This document shows, piece by piece, positions 5,425 through 60,031 of a stretch of 64,000 bases of DNA. Below the pieces are notes generated by a model. It saw only the letters and a list, made by a program, of their open reading frames with translations. It was not told the DNA's origin and searched no databases. Positions within the stretch are counted from its first letter, which is position 1, and each line of letters starts with the position of its first letter. This DNA comes from Methylotenera versatilis 301. GTDB lineage: Bacteria > Pseudomonadota > Gammaproteobacteria > Burkholderiales > Methylophilaceae. Made by a program: the position numbers and the translations under genes. Location: the NCBI RefSeq assembly GCF_000093025.1, contig NC_014207.1:1178001-1242000 (forward strand). Direction: 5' to 3'.

Positions 5425-5916
5425 CTAATTAGCTGGTGTAATTGTTTTGTTGTAGGTGTAAAAAACATCATCGCGCACCCAGCCTAAAGACTCATAGAGC
5501 GATTGCGCTGTCAGGTTGGTTTTTGCGGTGGTTAAATCTAGTCGTGCATATCCATTGTCGGCGGCATACTCATGCGCGGCTAGCATCAACGCTTTGCCGG
5601 CGCCAGATTTTCTGATACTAGCATTTACAAATAAATCATAAAGTACGCAGATAGGCGCTGCGAGAACTGAGCAAAATGTCGGGTAAAGCTGACAAAAGCC
5701 AATCATCTTTTGTGCTTGGTTTGTATGAACACTTTTTTCATCAATAGCGCTTTCAGCAACAAAAATAATGGAATCTTTTTTGTTCAGTCTATCTTGCAGA
5801 AAGCGCCTTGCCAGACCGATGTCTGATGTCTCTTCATAAAATTGTCGGTATGCGTTAAATAGCTCCGCAAGCGGCTCAAGGTCTTCTAATTGGGCGATTC
5901 GAATTTTTATAGTCAT
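5425..5916 (-). CDS. GNAT-family N-acetyltransferase
   Basis: The chosen ATG at 5916 gives about 163 residues starting MTIKIRIAQLEDLEPLAEL, the usual first strand and helix of GNAT proteins. A TTG ten codons further upstream is less likely. The acetyl-CoA loop is seen as VNASIRKSGAGKALMLAAHE (R-x-x-G-x-G/A type), followed by DLTTAKTNLTAQSLYESLGW, the typical motif B end. It would acetylate an amino group of a small molecule or protein; the substrate is unknown. It lies in a probable two-gene unit with the ABM-domain gene. Confidence 0.8.
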   Translation of the reverse strand: MTIKIRIAQLEDLEPLAELFNAYRQFYEETSDIGLARRFLQDRLNKKDSIIFVAESAIDEKSVHTNQAQKMIGFCQLYPTFCSVLAAPICVLYDLFVNASIRKSGAGKALMLAAHEYAADNGYARLDLTTAKTNLTAQSLYESLGWVRDDVFYTYNKTITPAN

Positions 5917-54970: not shown

Positions 54971-55005
54971 AAAAAAAGGTTGCTCTAGAAACTAGAACAA
55001 CCTTT
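54971..55005 (-). terminator. Terminator of the first EF-hand gene / candidate RNA
   Basis: The 14-nt arms 54975-54988 and 54992-55005 pair with one G-T, loop AAA. On the minus strand the stem is followed by TTTTTTT. The GGTTG...CAACC design recurs in copy 2 (55871-55905) with altered but paired inner bases. It may also serve thyA on the plus strand. Confidence 0.85.
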
Positions 55006-55042
55006 AAATTTTGTGACTTTAGGGGAGGAAGTCACAAAATTT
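55006..55042 (-). ncRNA. Hairpin with CCTCCCCTA loop, candidate 3'-UTR small RNA (copy 1)
   Basis: Perfect 14-bp stem (55006-55019 with 55029-55042) and a 9-nt loop that reads CCTCCCCTA on the minus strand, complementary to GGGGAGG-type Shine-Dalgarno sequences. It lies about 50 nt after the EF-hand stop and directly before the terminator. The same loop recurs in copy 2 (55913-55941) with two compensatory stem changes. No known RNA family was recognised with certainty; anti-Shine-Dalgarno loops occur in several regulatory RNAs. Confidence 0.6.
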
Positions 55043-55093
55043 TGAATAATTACTTAATACTTAAATTATTTTCAAGAATTAGTAATTAACGAA

Positions 55094-55444
55094 TTAATAC
55101 TTAGATGGAGGCGGAGTAGTTTCTGAAGTAGGGGTAGGCGCAGCTGTTTTAGCGCTTGCATACTCCTCCGCAGATATCATACCGTCATGATTTGCATCAA
55201 TCGTATCAAACTGACCTGACAAAGCTTTATCTTTCACAGCTTCTTTCAAAGATATTTTACCGTCCTTATTAGCATCCAGTGCTTTGAAGTTCTCATCTGC
55301 TGGTGCCGCCTCTGCAACTTTACCGTCAGTTTTTACTGCTGTTGTATTATCAGCCAATGCCACATTATGAATGCCTGCCATAAGTAACAATGCAATAGCT
55401 GTTGTTGAAGCTTTTAAGATAATTTGGTTTGAATTTACTTTCAT
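55094..55444 (-). CDS. Exported EF-hand protein (paralogue 1)
   Basis: This 116-residue protein has a signal peptide (about 1-32, cleaved near ALADNTT) and a mature part with two EF-hand loops, DANKDGKISLKE and DANHDGMISAEE, separated by about 15 residues, plus a Pro/Thr-rich tail. All metal-coordinating positions (1, 3, 5, 9, 12) carry suitable residues, so calcium binding in the periplasm is likely. Position 2 is Ala, not the Pro of lanmodulin. AGGAGC precedes the ATG. Transcription should come from the sigma-54 element at 55492. A paralogue with similar flanks lies at 55998, so the whole unit was duplicated. Confidence 0.9.
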   Translation of the reverse strand: MKVNSNQIILKASTTAIALLLMAGIHNVALADNTTAVKTDGKVAEAAPADENFKALDANKDGKISLKEAVKDKALSGQFDTIDANHDGMISAEEYASAKTAAPTPTSETTPPPSKY

Positions 55445-55491
55445 TGATATTGCTCCTAATGCTAAATAAAAAGGGCTTGCGCTATAGTATT

Positions 55492-55507
55492 AGCGAATAC
55501 CGTGCCA
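55492..55507 (-). promoter_or_regulatory. Sigma-54 promoter of EF-hand gene 1
   Basis: TGGCACGGTATTCGCT on the minus strand matches the consensus TGGCACG-N4-TTGCW with one mismatch; GG and GC are exactly 10 nt apart. The predicted transcription start near 55481 leaves a leader of about 38 nt containing AGGAGC. Confidence 0.85.
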
Positions 55508-55524
55508 ACTTTATTTGTAAATAT

Positions 55525-55537
55525 AATCAATGGGTTA
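55525..55537. promoter_or_regulatory. IHF binding site (copy 1)
   Basis: AATCAATGGGTTA is a perfect match to WATCAA-N4-TTR. It lies between the sigma-54 element and the upstream palindromes, where IHF bending is expected. Confidence 0.75.
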
Positions 55538-55568
55538 CGATAATTTTCAATTTTATTGAAAATTAATG

Positions 55569-55650
55569 TGTCGTTTCTAGGCGACATAAAAAAATACTTT
55601 CAGCTAACTATTTGAAATTAATGGGGTTTTATTGTCGCACTTGAACGACG
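55569..55650. promoter_or_regulatory. Two GlrR-type enhancer sites (copy 1)
   Basis: TGTC-GTTTCTAGGC-GACA (55569-55586) and TGTC-GCACTTGAAC-GACG (55633-55650) are palindromes of the TGTC-N10-GACA type known for GlrR, 64 bp apart, about 60 and 125 bp upstream of the sigma-54 element. Confidence 0.8.
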
Positions 55651-55870
55651 GTTTGATCATTTAAGGTCTCTTCTAGTGTAGAGCACGTTGACTTTCTTGA
55701 AGTCAGGAAAAATCATTTAGCTAATCTGTGTATTTATCCCGAGCACTGTGCGGGAAATCCTTAACTAGTAGGCTAACGGCATCAATCAATATTTATAAAG
55801 TAGCCATTTACTAGTTTTTTGGTTGCAGTTTAGGAGTTTTAAATTTAAAGTACTTCAGTCAAAAAAGAGT

Positions 55871-55905
55871 AAAAAAAAAAGGTTGCCCTAAAAATTAGGG
55901 CAACC
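55871..55905 (-). terminator. Terminator of the second EF-hand gene / candidate RNA
   Basis: GGTTGCCCTA (55881-55890) and TAGGGCAACC (55896-55905) form a perfect 10-bp stem, followed on the minus strand by ten T (55880-55871). It parallels the terminator at 54971-55005. The stretch 55651-55870 beyond it holds no recognised gene. Confidence 0.9.
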
Positions 55906-55912
55906 ATAAAAA

Positions 55913-55941
55913 CTTGTGACTCTAGGGGAGGGAGTCACAAG
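55913..55941 (-). ncRNA. Hairpin with CCTCCCCTA loop, candidate 3'-UTR small RNA (copy 2)
   Basis: Perfect 10-bp stem (55913-55922 with 55932-55941) and the same 9-nt loop as copy 1. Relative to copy 1 the innermost pair is C-G instead of T-A, and the ninth-to-tenth pair from the loop also changes T-A to C-G. The loop is unchanged although flanking DNA has diverged. Confidence 0.6.
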
Positions 55942-55997
55942 GGCTCAAACGTTTACTCAATACTGAAATTCTTTCTCAAGAATTACAAAATCACGAC

Positions 55998-56393
55998 TTA
56001 ATTCGTTGTCGGAGTTGCTGCAGGGCTTGGGGCTGATAAAGCAACCTTGTAGCTTGCGTACTCCTCTGCAGAAACCATTCCATCGTGATTTACATCGGCA
56101 GCATCAAACTGACCTGCCAAGGCTTTATCCTTTACCGCTTCTTTTAAAGACACTTTTCCATCTTTATTTGCGTCCAATACTTTGAAACTTTCATCTACTT
56201 GTGCCTTTGCTCCTGCATCTGTGGCTTTAGTATCTGTACTTTTCGCCTCTGAAACTTTAATGTCAGTTTTAATTGCATCTTTTAAGGCAGCTGTATTGTC
56301 TGCCAATGCCACATTGTTAATTCCTGCCATAAGTAGTAATGCAATTGCGGTTGTTGAAACTTTCACGATAACTGGCGTTGAATTTAATTTCAT
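55998..56393 (-). CDS. Exported EF-hand protein (paralogue 2)
   Basis: This 131-residue paralogue has a signal peptide ending near ALADNTA and a Lys/Asp/Ala-rich linker about 20 residues longer than in copy 1. The two EF-hand loops are DANKDGKVSLKE and DVNHDGMVSAEE. The segment between the loops, EAVKDKALAGQFD, differs from copy 1 by a single residue. It has its own sigma-54 promoter, IHF site and enhancer pair, and its own 3' hairpin and terminator, all spaced as in copy 1. It is likely a periplasmic calcium-binding protein. It lies just downstream of glrR on the same strand but is separated by its own promoter region. Confidence 0.9.
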   Translation of the reverse strand: MKLNSTPVIVKVSTTAIALLLMAGINNVALADNTAALKDAIKTDIKVSEAKSTDTKATDAGAKAQVDESFKVLDANKDGKVSLKEAVKDKALAGQFDAADVNHDGMVSAEEYASYKVALSAPSPAATPTTN

Positions 56394-56439
56394 TGATAAT
56401 GCTCCTAATGCTTAATAAAAGGGCTTGCGCTATTACATT

Positions 56440-56455
56440 AGCGAATACCGTGCCA
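56440..56455 (-). promoter_or_regulatory. Sigma-54 promoter of EF-hand gene 2
   Basis: TGGCACGGTATTCGCT on the minus strand, identical over all 16 bases to copy 1, with GG and GC 10 nt apart. The start of transcription would be near 56429. Confidence 0.85.
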
Positions 56456-56473
56456 ACTTTTATTTTTAAATAA

Positions 56474-56486
56474 AATCAATGGGTTA
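56474..56486. promoter_or_regulatory. IHF binding site (copy 2)
   Basis: AATCAATGGGTTA, a perfect WATCAA-N4-TTR match, at the same relative position as in copy 1. Confidence 0.75.
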
Positions 56487-56518
56487 GGAGTATTCTGGAA
56501 TTTTATCGGGAATTTATA

Positions 56519-56600
56519 TGTCGCTTATGGACGACACATAAGTATAGTTTTGGCTAACTGATTGAAATTACGGGATTTTTTTTGTCGTAATTAAACGACG
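56519..56600. promoter_or_regulatory. Two GlrR-type enhancer sites (copy 2)
   Basis: TGTC-GCTTATGGAC-GACA (56519-56536) and TGTC-GTAATTAAAC-GACG (56583-56600), again 64 bp apart. The spacer sequences differ from copy 1 while the TGTC/GAC(A/G) half-sites are unchanged. The distal site ends 6 bp from the glrR stop. Confidence 0.8.
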
Positions 56601-56606
56601 ATTTAT

Positions 56607-57977
56607 CTAGTCAGGTGACTCATTTTCTTTAGAGGCTTTAAATGTGCTGGCTTGAATATGGTGGCGTTCTAGTAATCTGTAAAACTCTGTGCGGTTGCGT
56701 TGCGCAAGTTTTGCCGCCTGAGTAACATTGCCTTGAGTTGTTTTAAGGATATTAATCAGATAGTTAAACTCAAATTGTTGGCGAGCAACATCTAGCGGGA
56801 TAACTGTATTTGCACCTTCTTGCAAAGCTTTTTGTACCAAATTAATCGGAATAACCTGCGTAGTTGCAAGCACTACAGTTTGTTCAACGATGTTTTGTAA
56901 CTGTCGCACATTGCCTGGCCAAGGCGCTGTAATCAAAATTTCTAAGGCATCTGGTGCAAAACTATGTAATTTTTTCTTATATTTATCGCTAAAGACATGC
57001 AAGAAATGATTTGCAAGCAGGCTTACATCTTCGCGACGATTAGCTAACGATGGAATTTCCAAGCTTACGACATTGATGCGATAAAATAAATCTTCCCGAA
57101 AACGACCTTCTTTCATCTCATTAACTAAGTTGCGGTGGGTGGCTGAAATTAAGCGTAAATCTATTGGTATATTGGTCGTGCTACCTACAGGTCGTATCAC
57201 GCGTTCTTGCAATGCGCGTAGCACTTTAACTTGCAAGGCTTGAGGCATATCGCCAATCTCATCTAAAAACAGTGTGCCGCCTTCTGCACTTTGGAACAGT
57301 CCAACATGGTTATTGATAGCGCCAGTAAAAGCGCCTTTGCTGTGACCAAATAGTTCTGATTCAAGTAGATTTTCTGGGATCGCACCACAGTTAATTGCCA
57401 CAAAAGGTTTTGCGCTGCGTGGGCTGTAGCGATGAATTGCACGTGCCAGCAATTCTTTTCCAGAACCGCTTTCACCTTGAATAAATACGCTAGCATCGGT
57501 ATTAGCAACGAGTTTGGCTTGACCAAGCAAACTCTCCATTATTGAACTGCGCGTTAGAATATCTGCACGCCAGCTATCATCCTCATTAGAGACTGTATGA
57601 GTTTGCGTGCCATTCAAGCGCAGCGCAGAGGCGACTTGTTGCAGCAGTGCTTGGCTATCAAACGGCTTGGTTAAAAAGCTGAACACACCGCGCTGCGTGG
57701 CATTAACGGCATCTGGTATAGAGCCATGCGCCGTTAACATAATTACGGGTAGGCTAGGGTGCGATTGTTGAATGGCGTCTAGTAAAGCCATGCCATCCAT
57801 CGCAGGCATACGTAAGTCGCTAATCACCAAATCAGGTCTTTGTAGCATGATGGCAGACATTGCCTCAGCGCCATTGTTTGTCGTGACAGTGGCATAGCCA
57901 GCGGCATTCAAGCGCATGCTAATGAGCTTGAGTATATCTTTGTCATCGTCAACGATTAGAATGTTTGGAGTTTGCAT
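56607..57977 (-). CDS. glrR: Sigma-54-dependent response regulator GlrR
   Basis: This 456-residue NtrC-family regulator has a receiver domain (about 1-120; phospho-Asp in LVISDLRMPAMDG), an AAA+ domain (about 145-375; Walker A GESGSGKELLA, sigma-54 contact loop GAFTGA, Walker B GGTLFLDEIGDMP) and a Fis-type HTH (TQGNVTQAAKLAQRNRTEFY). AHGSIPDAVNATQRGVFSFL closely matches E. coli GlrR (YfhA). It is last in the glrK-qseG-glrR operon. TGTC-N10-GACA sites with sigma-54 promoters lie immediately downstream, upstream of two EF-hand genes, and are its probable targets. Confidence 0.92.
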   Translation of the reverse strand: MQTPNILIVDDDKDILKLISMRLNAAGYATVTTNNGAEAMSAIMLQRPDLVISDLRMPAMDGMALLDAIQQSHPSLPVIMLTAHGSIPDAVNATQRGVFSFLTKPFDSQALLQQVASALRLNGTQTHTVSNEDDSWRADILTRSSIMESLLGQAKLVANTDASVFIQGESGSGKELLARAIHRYSPRSAKPFVAINCGAIPENLLESELFGHSKGAFTGAINNHVGLFQSAEGGTLFLDEIGDMPQALQVKVLRALQERVIRPVGSTTNIPIDLRLISATHRNLVNEMKEGRFREDLFYRINVVSLEIPSLANRREDVSLLANHFLHVFSDKYKKKLHSFAPDALEILITAPWPGNVRQLQNIVEQTVVLATTQVIPINLVQKALQEGANTVIPLDVARQQFEFNYLINILKTTQGNVTQAAKLAQRNRTEFYRLLERHHIQASTFKASKENESPD

Positions 57978-57992
57978 GGTTTTCTTGTAAAT

Positions 57993-58601
57993 TTAAGGTT
58001 TAGTCATGGGTTTACTGATTACCTTACTATCACGGTCACTAATGGTTTTTTCGATATTCTTTAAATCATTCAGTTTCTTATCTAAAGCATCATACTTTTG
58101 TTGTAAAGCTTCTAACTTCTGCTGACTTAAATCAAGCTTCTTCAAGTCATCTCTATTTTTTTGAGATTGCTTAATATCATCTAAAACGTATTCATAGAAT
58201 AAACTTGTTAATGCCGACTCTGTTGGATTTAGGCTGTTTTCTTGCAGTAAGTCTTGTAGCAGGCTTTGAGCTTTTGCAGTGTCTCGTACGCGGCTACTCG
58301 GTAATGAAAGCATAATAGCCAGCTTGATGCGCTCTGTTAGATCGAATTTATTTTCTATGAGTGCACGATTCGTTTCGTTGAATGATTTCTTTTGTACATC
58401 CAAAGTTTCGTTTGAAAAACGGTCAATAAAAAGCAACAAACTATTTACGCGATCTTGTCTAGAAGCCGAAGTTTCTGCCTTTCTGATCTCTAACGATTTA
58501 GTCGTATTAGGCTCTTTTTCTGCAGGTTTATTCGTCACACTTGTGCATGCGCCTAGCGATAGCACTAAAACACTTAAACTGATTATTACTTTGATGCTCA
58601 T
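57993..58601 (-). CDS. QseG-like lipoprotein
   Basis: This 202-residue protein has a signal peptide with lipobox LGAC (Cys about 19) and a mostly helical body. The C-terminal region (about 145-190; LSQQKLEALQQKYDALDKKL) is a predicted coiled coil. Between the kinase and the regulator it occupies the place of E. coli QseG (YfhG), an outer-membrane lipoprotein that interacts with the sensor kinase. Sequence similarity to QseG is limited, so the call rests mainly on position and architecture. It overlaps glrK by 4 bp. Confidence 0.72.
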   Translation of the reverse strand: MSIKVIISLSVLVLSLGACTSVTNKPAEKEPNTTKSLEIRKAETSASRQDRVNSLLLFIDRFSNETLDVQKKSFNETNRALIENKFDLTERIKLAIMLSLPSSRVRDTAKAQSLLQDLLQENSLNPTESALTSLFYEYVLDDIKQSQKNRDDLKKLDLSQQKLEALQQKYDALDKKLNDLKNIEKTISDRDSKVISKPMTKP

Positions 58602-60031
58602 CTAATCTCCAATTGGGGGATACTAACAATAAAATGCGCGCCTTGGTTTGACTCAGCGAGTTTGATGACGCCTTGATGCGCATTGACTAAATCTTTTGCG
58701 ATGGTGAGTCCTAGACCACTGCCACCGATCAAGCTTTTATGCAGTGTGTTTCCCCGATAAAACGGGTCGAATAGTTGCGCCTGATCAAGCTCGGCTAGGC
58801 CGGGGCCATTATCTTTAACATCAATTATCCAAGTTTCTTTTTCGAATCTTGTCTGTACTGAAATTAAGCCTTGCTGCGGCGTGTACTTTACAGCGTTTGA
58901 AATAAGATTGTCTAAAATAATTGTCAATTTTTCTTCATCTGCAACAACAGTTTCAACATTGTAGTGAGTTTCTACTGCCAACTCTTTATTTCTAATGCTA
59001 AGCGCATGAGCATTAATTACTTTGTTAATGACTTCAGATAAATTTAATTGTACTAGTGTTAACTCGGCTTCAATAGATTCCATGCGCGTGTAATTAAGCA
59101 GGTTTTCTATCATTCTCTGCAAGCGGATGCTATTTTCGCGCAGAATCAGGGTAATCTCAGATTGCTGTGCAGTAAGTGCGCCACCGATGCCATCGTATAA
59201 CAGTTCGGTGGCCTCTCTTATTGCGGTAAGAGGAGTTTTCAGTTCATGCGATACGTGCCTTAAAAACTGCTGTTTTTGTTCGTTCACTTCTTTAAGTTCG
59301 GTTCGCAACCAATCTAAGCGCTGTCCTAGAATGCGCAAGTCGCCAGGTCCATCTATGACAATGGGTTGCTCATATTCTCCTTTACCTAAATGTCTAATGG
59401 CCGCATCCATGCGTCTAATCGGTTTGGCGAGTAAGTAGGTAATGGCACCAGCCACTAGTAAAGCTAGCGGGATAAGCACTAAGCTTTGCAGAAATAATTT
59501 CTTCTGGGTCTGTTGTACGGTGAGCGTTAGTTGGCTGGATGCCGCATCTATGGCTAGGTTGTTTTCTTGCACGATGGTTTCTACCAATTGCGTGATTTGA
59601 CTAAAGCTATTTAAAAAGCTTAAATCTGGTCCATTCATAGGCTTGCTACTTAGAATAGCCTCATGTAATTGCGATGTTTTAGCGCTTAATAACTGCAGAT
59701 TTTTATGCTGAGATGGGCTATTGGCCAAAGCTTCAAGCTGAGAAATAGCGTCATTAAACTTAACGTGAGCTTGGTTATAATTGTTGAATAGTACATTGTC
59801 TTGAAGTACAAAATACTGCTTACTACTGCGCTCCATGAGGCTTAGCTGTTCTTGCAAGACACGTCCGGAGCGTGTGGTGACCACTGCATTTGAAATAGTA
59901 ATTTGACTTTGTTTTGCAAGGTGATCAAAAGCAATATTCGCGTTCGCAAACACCCATAGCAATGGCACAATGGCAAATGCAAAGCCTACTAATAAAAGCT
60001 TTAAGAAAGAGCTTGGGTATTGAAATCGCAT
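58598..60031 (-). CDS. glrK: Sensor histidine kinase GlrK-like
   Basis: This 477-residue inner-membrane kinase has helices at about 12-30 and 180-200 flanking a helical periplasmic sensor domain. A HAMP region (LAKPIRRMDAAIRHLGKGEY), the phospho-His box FLRHVSHELKTPLTAIREAT and the ATPase motifs (NLISNAVKYTPQQG, DNGPGLAELDQ, GSGLGLTIAKDLVN) follow. The MERSSKQYFVLQDNVLFNNY sensor segment matches the E. coli GlrK region MERSYRQY. It should phosphorylate GlrR in response to envelope conditions. Only 48 bp separate it from the divergent folA. Confidence 0.88.
   Translation of the reverse strand: MRFQYPSSFLKLLLVGFAFAIVPLLWVFANANIAFDHLAKQSQITISNAVVTTRSGRVLQEQLSLMERSSKQYFVLQDNVLFNNYNQAHVKFNDAISQLEALANSPSQHKNLQLLSAKTSQLHEAILSSKPMNGPDLSFLNSFSQITQLVETIVQENNLAIDAASSQLTLTVQQTQKKLFLQSLVLIPLALLVAGAITYLLAKPIRRMDAAIRHLGKGEYEQPIVIDGPGDLRILGQRLDWLRTELKEVNEQKQQFLRHVSHELKTPLTAIREATELLYDGIGGALTAQQSEITLILRENSIRLQRMIENLLNYTRMESIEAELTLVQLNLSEVINKVINAHALSIRNKELAVETHYNVETVVADEEKLTIILDNLISNAVKYTPQQGLISVQTRFEKETWIIDVKDNGPGLAELDQAQLFDPFYRGNTLHKSLIGGSGLGLTIAKDLVNAHQGVIKLAESNQGAHFIVSIPQLEIR

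Follow-up and report, generated by a model that had tools for sequence, protein, structure and literature searches.

The window analyzed here is a stretch of 64,000 nucleotides from Methylotenera versatilis 301. Positions 54971-60031 hold an operon resembling that of GlrK, QseG and GlrR (QseF) and, downstream of it, two duplicated genes for EF-hand proteins (EF1 and EF2). A sigma-54 promoter of the GlrR type precedes each of these genes, and a structured RNA element follows it. The host genome is a single contig of 3.06 Mb (completeness 99.99) and encodes both RpoN and Hfq. Our analysis suggests that GlrR drives an envelope protein together with a small RNA from these units.

The three operon genes lie on the minus strand. 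The regulator gene (56607..57977) encodes a sigma-54 activator with receiver, AAA+ and Fis-type helix-turn-helix domains, 58% identical to GlrR of Escherichia coli. Its top NCBIfam model is GlrR (NF011695), with 626 bits against a model cut-off of 763, which indicates a related protein and not an automatic call. The HTH_8 domain also scores slightly below its cut-off. By its domains and its closest similarity, the activator belongs to GlrR (QseF). The kinase gene (58598..60031) encodes a GlrK-like sensor histidine kinase, assigned from its HAMP, HisKA and HATPase_c domains and from comparison with E. coli GlrK (136 of 441 aligned positions identical, 31%). Between both genes lies that of a lipoprotein (57993..58601) with the lipobox LGAC. 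The order kinase, lipoprotein and regulator is that of GlrR (QseF) operons.

The lipoprotein is likely, although not proven, to be QseG. Its position, its lipobox and a C-terminal coiled-coil motif point to this identity, and its similarity to E. coli QseG is weak. The BLASTP match is not significant (E 0.084). A profile of 20 relatives aligned with QseG in hhalign with a probability of 45%, over 40 C-terminal columns only. The matches in the PDB are weak as well, with QseG chains at E 0.032 and 0.04 and another outer membrane lipoprotein at E 0.026. A middle open reading frame (ORF) of fitting length is present in 46 of 52 family loci, at least one of them wrong (L149), and 32 of the 46 carry a lipobox under a strict pattern. 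The sequence-only reading of this stretch had named a GlrK-QseG-GlrR-like operon. The regulator, the kinase and the gene order bear this out, and QseG stays plausible, with weak sequence similarity.

EF2 (55998..56393, minus strand, 131 amino acids) and EF1 (55094..55444, minus strand, 116 amino acids) encode proteins with 72% identity. Both look exported, as judged by eye from the N-terminus, and both contain two EF-hand loops above the Pfam cut-off. The two proteins may bind calcium. Membership in XopAW or lanmodulin was rejected, with matches far under the cut-offs of those models.

The promoters of these genes have the same parts. Paired palindromes TGTCG-N8-CGAC(A/G), located by pattern search, lie 64 bp apart ahead of each gene. 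In EF2, the distal activator site is at 56583..56600 (minus strand; the plus strand reads TGTCG-N8-CGACG) and the proximal site, TGTCG-N8-CGACA, at 56519..56536 (minus). An IHF-like match with 1 mismatch (TTTCAATCAGTTA, 56555..56567, minus) lies between them. An IHF match with 0 mismatches (AATCAATGGGTTA, 56474..56486, plus) and the sigma-54 -24/-12 element TGGCACGGTATTCGCT (56440..56455, minus) complete the promoter. In EF1, the distal and proximal sites are at 55633..55650 and 55569..55586 (both minus). The IHF matches were read from the sequence, one between the sites with 1 mismatch (55605..55617, minus) and the perfect AATCAATGGGTTA at 55525..55537 (plus). The -24/-12 element is the identical TGGCACGGTATTCGCT (55492..55507, minus). 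The distal site of either pair terminates in GACG rather than GACA. The sequence-only reading had described a full enhancer-dependent promoter on both genes, with unchanged half-sites and diverged spacers. The parts are all there; the cores TGTCG and CGAC are the same in EF1 and EF2, and the 8 inner bases differ.

The pattern TGTC-N10-GACR occurs 8 times in the window against 2.07 expected, and 8 or more matches were found in 1 of 100 shuffles. A lone TGTC-N10-GACA palindrome lies at 5677-5694. The stricter TGTCG-N8-CGACR is found at five further places in the genome. Around these (-100 to +400), the sole -24/-12-like element scoring at least 16 reaches 16.4 and lies inside an open frame. The elements of the EF genes score 21.0. 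With TGTC-N10-GACA sites, an IHF match and a sigma-54 promoter, both genes have the features of GlrR-regulon targets.

We compared this arrangement in a family sample of 150 genomes and an order sample of 300 genomes. GlrR matches were present in 51 family genomes (54 matches, E up to 1e-120) and 118 order genomes (125 matches, E up to 1e-130). Besides the locus of the window, the comparison took 52 of the 53 other family matches and 68 of the 120 non-family order matches, these mostly by rank with some skipped. We call a composite the combination of a sigma-54 element and a site with one mismatch or none. Within 520 bp past the glrR stop, it is present in 95 of 121 loci including the window (family 45/53, rest of the order 50/68), against 0-1 of 121 in each of 20 shuffles. 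The sequence-only reading depended on the half-sites being kept in related genomes, and it survived this comparison. A strict composite is present in 66 of the 121 loci and in none of the 20 shuffles. Elsewhere in the same loci, on both strands, it occurs 14 times, four times at an EF-hand unit that is displaced or duplicate (in the window, L102, L109 and L110).

Eight family loci depart from this pattern. In L102, L109 and L110, which have no near composite, the unit sits farther downstream. L106 is truncated by the contig end, and an EF-hand unit is on another contig of that genome. L117 and L125 have the sigma-54 element with weak or distant sites, and no composite was found after glrR in L148 and L149. 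L148, L150 and L151 hold more distant GlrR-like relatives (55-62% identity), and in L150 and L151 a sigma-54 composite (site with one mismatch) precedes a different small protein. Between glrR and the EF-hand gene, L109 and L110 have one more GlrR-type promoter, which is divergent and lies ahead of an exported-looking ORF (MNRLLKRT..., 136-156 amino acids).

The geometry of the promoter is conserved as well. In the order sample, the nearest site and the -24 element are spaced with a 10.5-bp helical phasing (n = 50, R = 0.72, nominal p = 7e-12, uncorrected for relatedness). Of 37 family promoters, 29 have an IHF match (one mismatch or none) between the sites and 33 have one between site and promoter, against 64 and 90 of 370 base-shuffled stretches. 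In this set of 37, the conservation of the half-sites is circular, since they were the selection criterion for the loci. Conservation of these sequences thus supports a wiring of regulator, site type, IHF and sigma-54.

The products encoded past the promoter are not uniform. We counted them by Pfam matches (E up to 0.01) on the first gene. Of 47 first genes in the family, 38 encode EF-hands and 15 a BON domain, so the two must coincide in six or more (for example L112). In five loci of one genus (L114, L115, L119, L121 and L129) and in L117, the product is a different small membrane-type protein that lacks an EF-hand; that of L114, the one tested, has no Pfam match. Among 51 first genes from the order, 12 have BON domains, 8 glycine zippers, 7 EF-hands, 2 MdoG/OpgG and 3 glycosyltransferase family 2 domains, although the start codons were chosen by a simple script and some of the 51 are wrong frames. 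The glycosyltransferase products are presumably OpgH. By eye, we also found BON-like products in Chitinimonas viridis, Herbaspirillum sp. and Duganella radicis, an OpgG-like product in Rubrivivax albus, and OpgH-like products in Variovorax, Pseudorhodoferax and Pseudacidovorax. These named cases are among the best 80 matches of a contig scan and were judged against the tested proteins. To judge from the predicted genes, the promoter is fixed and the encoded envelope output varies, from EF-hand, EF-hand with BON and BON to glycine-zipper and OpgG proteins. In L177, L190, L264 and L272, a divergent GlrR-type promoter lies about 3.5-3.7 kb before the glrR stop, ahead of an ORF starting with (M/V)FNK, which is a possible further GlrR target. 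We take this ORF to resemble bactofilin.

A hairpin and an intrinsic terminator lie 3' of both EF-hand genes, on the minus strand, and the sequence-only reading had overlooked them. Behind EF2, the hairpin CTTGTGACTCCCTCCCCTAGAGTCACAAG, with a C-rich loop, is at 55913..55941, and the terminator hairpin with its T-run at 55871..55905. Behind EF1, the hairpin TTTTGTGACTTCCTCCCCTAAAGTCACAAAA is at 55009..55039 and the terminator hairpin with T-run at 54971..55002. With up to 3 mismatches, the window hairpin has no other occurrence in its own genome. Against shuffles, the folding of both copies stands out clearly (z -9.6 and -8.6). An alignment of 26 sequences, two from the window and 24 from relatives with hairpins chosen by eye at the equivalent place, shows changes on both sides in 18 of 20 pairs, and in 9 of 10 in the first hairpin. 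The cells with both sides changed number 110 against 34.2 in shuffles. None of 500 shuffles was as high, and slid structures gave at most 18. The loop remains C-rich while the stem bases vary. A conserved structured 3' end closed by an intrinsic terminator is one of the marks of small RNAs derived from 3' untranslated regions, and both units have it.

Other family loci end in a related form. In 22 of 27, the GlrR-driven stretch terminates with a C-rich-loop terminator, often CUCCCCGAG, with covariation in 7 of its 10 stem pairs (15 distinct rows). No such terminator was found downstream of glrR in the other 5 of the 27 (L140 and L148-L151). CU-loops are enriched in first terminators (37 of 80, and 32 of 490 among other terminators), mainly in the family (26/42; order 11/38). 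Rfam, at its own cut-offs, assigns the window RNA to no family. The best matches in the window, suhB/mmgR, with 23.5 bits where the cut-off is 41 (E 0.15), and sau-6072 (E 1.4), were taken as chance.

Four loci of a sister genus (L126, L130, L132 and L133) separate the RNA from the protein. They have no candidate target ORF past the promoter, and the promoter and the hairpin are kept. The hairpin, GTG(A/G)CT-TCCTCCCTTGT-AGTCAC, starts about 27 nt past the start of the -24 element, at the expected transcription start, and an intrinsic terminator follows. The predicted RNA is 70-72 nt long. Between these genomes, the identity is 94% in the RNA, 84% in the promoter, 74% in the last 900 bases of glrR and 70% in the two-site block. 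The flanks reach 57% before the promoter and 49% after the terminator. Three of the genomes lack EF-hand homologs (E up to 1e-6), and the fourth has weak and remote ones. L111 and L144, from the same sister genus, retain the EF-hand ORF with the hairpin behind it. On these alignments, the conserved unit is the promoter plus the RNA 3' end, and the coding part is variable and can be lost. The sequence-only reading had proposed exported calcium-binding proteins as a different output of the regulator. This is half of the picture, because the transcripts also end in a conserved structured RNA, the sole remnant in these four relatives.

A covariance model of this RNA (R1), searched under stricter filters that may lose weak matches, gave 28 matches in 27 of the 150 family genomes, one in each and two in that of the window. 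GlrR is present in 26 of these 27; the exception, G061, is 76% complete and has no GlrR match. Conversely, 25 genomes with GlrR have no R1 match. Within the genus, GlrR, the EF gene and the RNA are found in the same 14 of 24 genomes and nine have none of the three. The remaining member (G060) has only a GlrR relative at 55% identity. The model of the C-rich-loop terminator (R2) matches in 29 of 150 genomes, sometimes weakly or away from the GlrR unit. The CUCCCC-loop terminator model has second matches at G073:C3:10268-10305, G014:C9:93729-93766 and G012:C54:7462-7498, in genomes where the copy of the GlrR unit is also present. In G140 (L239), the EF-hand unit is on a contig separate from glrR and has an ORF upstream of it, and the sites, promoter, EF gene and RNA are intact. 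This ORF is presumably IstB-like.

The closest known system is that of GlrR and GlmY. The glmY promoter has TGTC-N10-GACA or TGT-N12-ACA sites, IHF and sigma-54, and similar sites precede a sigma-54 promoter of rpoE, according to the cited passages (PMC8745638, PMC6075780). In E. coli K-12, the glmY sites are at -230, -197 and -134, with a spacing of 63 bp for the last two (64 bp in the window). One IHF match lies between the -197 and -134 sites and one before the promoter. Both systems have the same regulator family, TGTC-N10-GACA sites, order of parts, two IHF matches and a sigma-54 promoter, and the target is beside the operon in both. In the four relatives lacking the ORF, the likeness goes further, with an RNA as the only visible product. 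However, E. coli glmY lies upstream of glrK, and here the target is downstream of glrR. The claim that regulator, site and location are all kept stands for the regulator and the site type and fails for the location. In addition, a protein is usually encoded here, and the RNA, of about 70 nt with a C-rich loop, lacks a match to the GlmY model. This model (RF00128) has no match in the window or in the loci without the ORF, and the same kind of search did match a locus of Arsenophonus. There, a composite precedes the glrR stop by 4.3 kb, with the Rfam GlmY match directly behind this composite. By analogy with E. coli, both would lie upstream of glrK.

Other RNAs share single features with this one. 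The double-hairpin RNAs of Burkholderia (RF02278) and S17S of Bordetella have CU-rich unpaired stretches that can cover ribosome binding sites, and RNase E releases S17S, whose 5' end is inside a small ORF, from a longer transcript, in the passages seen of PMC5688073 and PMC11722255. They resemble our candidate as short two-hairpin RNAs with CU-rich unpaired stretches. Unlike S17, which has a housekeeping promoter, the RNA here lies 3' of an EF-hand gene under a sigma-54/GlrR-type promoter, and the RF02278 model has no match here at permissive thresholds. GlnZ is a small RNA in the 3' untranslated region of the glnA mRNA, driven by NtrC and sigma-54, and its processing has been shown (PMC9731577, in part). 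The likeness is an enhancer-driven sigma-54 mRNA bearing such an RNA. The activator, host gene, sequence and RNA differ, and processing would have to be assumed here. A comparative sigma-54 study counted 117 QseF-like regulators (PMC3162934, passages seen). The BiofilmReg operon (PMC5192318) is unrelated, its regulators being mostly of the CreB subfamily in the part seen, and the part seen of PMC11784454 holds nothing on this regulon. Full-text searches returned no paper on GlrR with EF-hand, nor on GlrR with sigma-54 and Betaproteobacteria. Broader ones gave no description of the regulon or the RNA among the matches listed, with subscription papers mostly outside their coverage.

We propose the following mechanism. 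GlrK, probably with the QseG-like lipoprotein, would phosphorylate GlrR. GlrR would then occupy the two helically phased sites while IHF bends the DNA, and sigma-54 polymerase would transcribe the duplicated unit, that is, an exported EF-hand protein followed by the C-rich-loop hairpin and the terminator. Most likely, the 3' end doubles as a regulatory RNA of about 70 nt, freed from the mRNA in M. versatilis and transcribed directly in the four relatives without the ORF. Such an RNA might act in trans, its loop (UUCCUCCC/CUCCCC) pairing with G-rich Shine-Dalgarno-like sequences with the assistance of Hfq. We give a probability of about 0.7 to the reading in which an envelope protein and a 3' small RNA are both under the control of GlrR, as a counterpart of GlrR-GlmY. 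The sites, the promoter architecture, the phasing, the co-occurrence, the covariation of the RNA and the loss of the ORF with retention of the RNA are observed. The binding of GlrR and IHF, the expression, the processing of the RNA, the use of Hfq, the targets and calcium binding are what we infer.

Several results weigh against this proposal. Targets were sought with the 9-mer complementary to the shared loop core TAGGGGAGG. Of its 11 places in the genome, two are the RNA genes themselves. The other nine comprise five on the same strand in open frames, three within one shared repeated sequence and one antisense to an open frame, and none is a convincing translation start, as judged by reading. 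All the tests are inflated by the relatedness of the sampled genomes. Hairpins chosen by eye (A1) or by a script demanding a C-rich loop (A2) match the models by construction, and only two of the 28 R1 matches are independent (G140 and G061, which likewise adjoin EF-hand genes). Beyond the genus, some genomes that lack a GlrR match (for example, G081, G093 and G115) also carry weaker EF-hand homologs. Finally, over the 68 order loci, the best matches of R1 and R2 had E 0.31 and 0.084, nothing convincing outside the family. The two best R2 matches there have no C-rich loop, and L183 (E 0.38) and L208 (E 0.51), with a CUCCC loop, are not significant. The RNA is therefore not shown to be ancestral in the order.

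The main rival takes the hairpin as a cis-acting 3' element, an mRNA stabiliser or a part of the terminator, with exported EF-hand proteins as the only output of GlrR. It would account for the place of the hairpin, 3'-terminal in both EF-hand transcripts of the window and beside the terminator, and for the frequency of EF-hand domains among the first genes of the family. However, the four genomes without the ORF speak against a role in cis, since there the RNA and the promoter are the most alike of the compared stretches. The C-rich loop is also kept despite base changes in the stem. On this balance, we regard a protein-only output as unlikely. It would be more unlikely still that the promoter serves another sigma-54 activator, such as one of the PrsR or NtrC type. 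Related activators could share half-sites, and the TGTC-N10-GAC site pair occurs in 45 of the 150 family genomes, several times in some. By itself the pair lacks specificity, since a reversed control pattern has matches in a number of these genomes too (15 in G021). Against this, the composite is concentrated within 520 bp past glrR, GlrR accompanies the EF gene and the RNA in the same genus members, and E. coli GlrR is served by the same kind of site (consensus from the passages cited above).

If GlrR drives both an envelope protein and a small RNA, a regulon described so far, in the cited passages, in enterobacteria only would extend to a large order of other proteobacteria. A fixed promoter would there serve exchangeable envelope outputs across the order. 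A concrete candidate small RNA can also be named, and four natural genomes without the ORF separate it from the protein. If confirmed, one regulator would drive unrelated small RNAs in two lineages. More tentatively, the RNA and not the protein might be the constant product of GlrR in the family, with the encoded envelope proteins coming, changing and going, a suggestion that we leave somewhat short of even odds. If it is true, GlrR would be an ancient switch from envelope signals to small RNAs, the RNAs themselves being unrelated or diverged beyond recognition.

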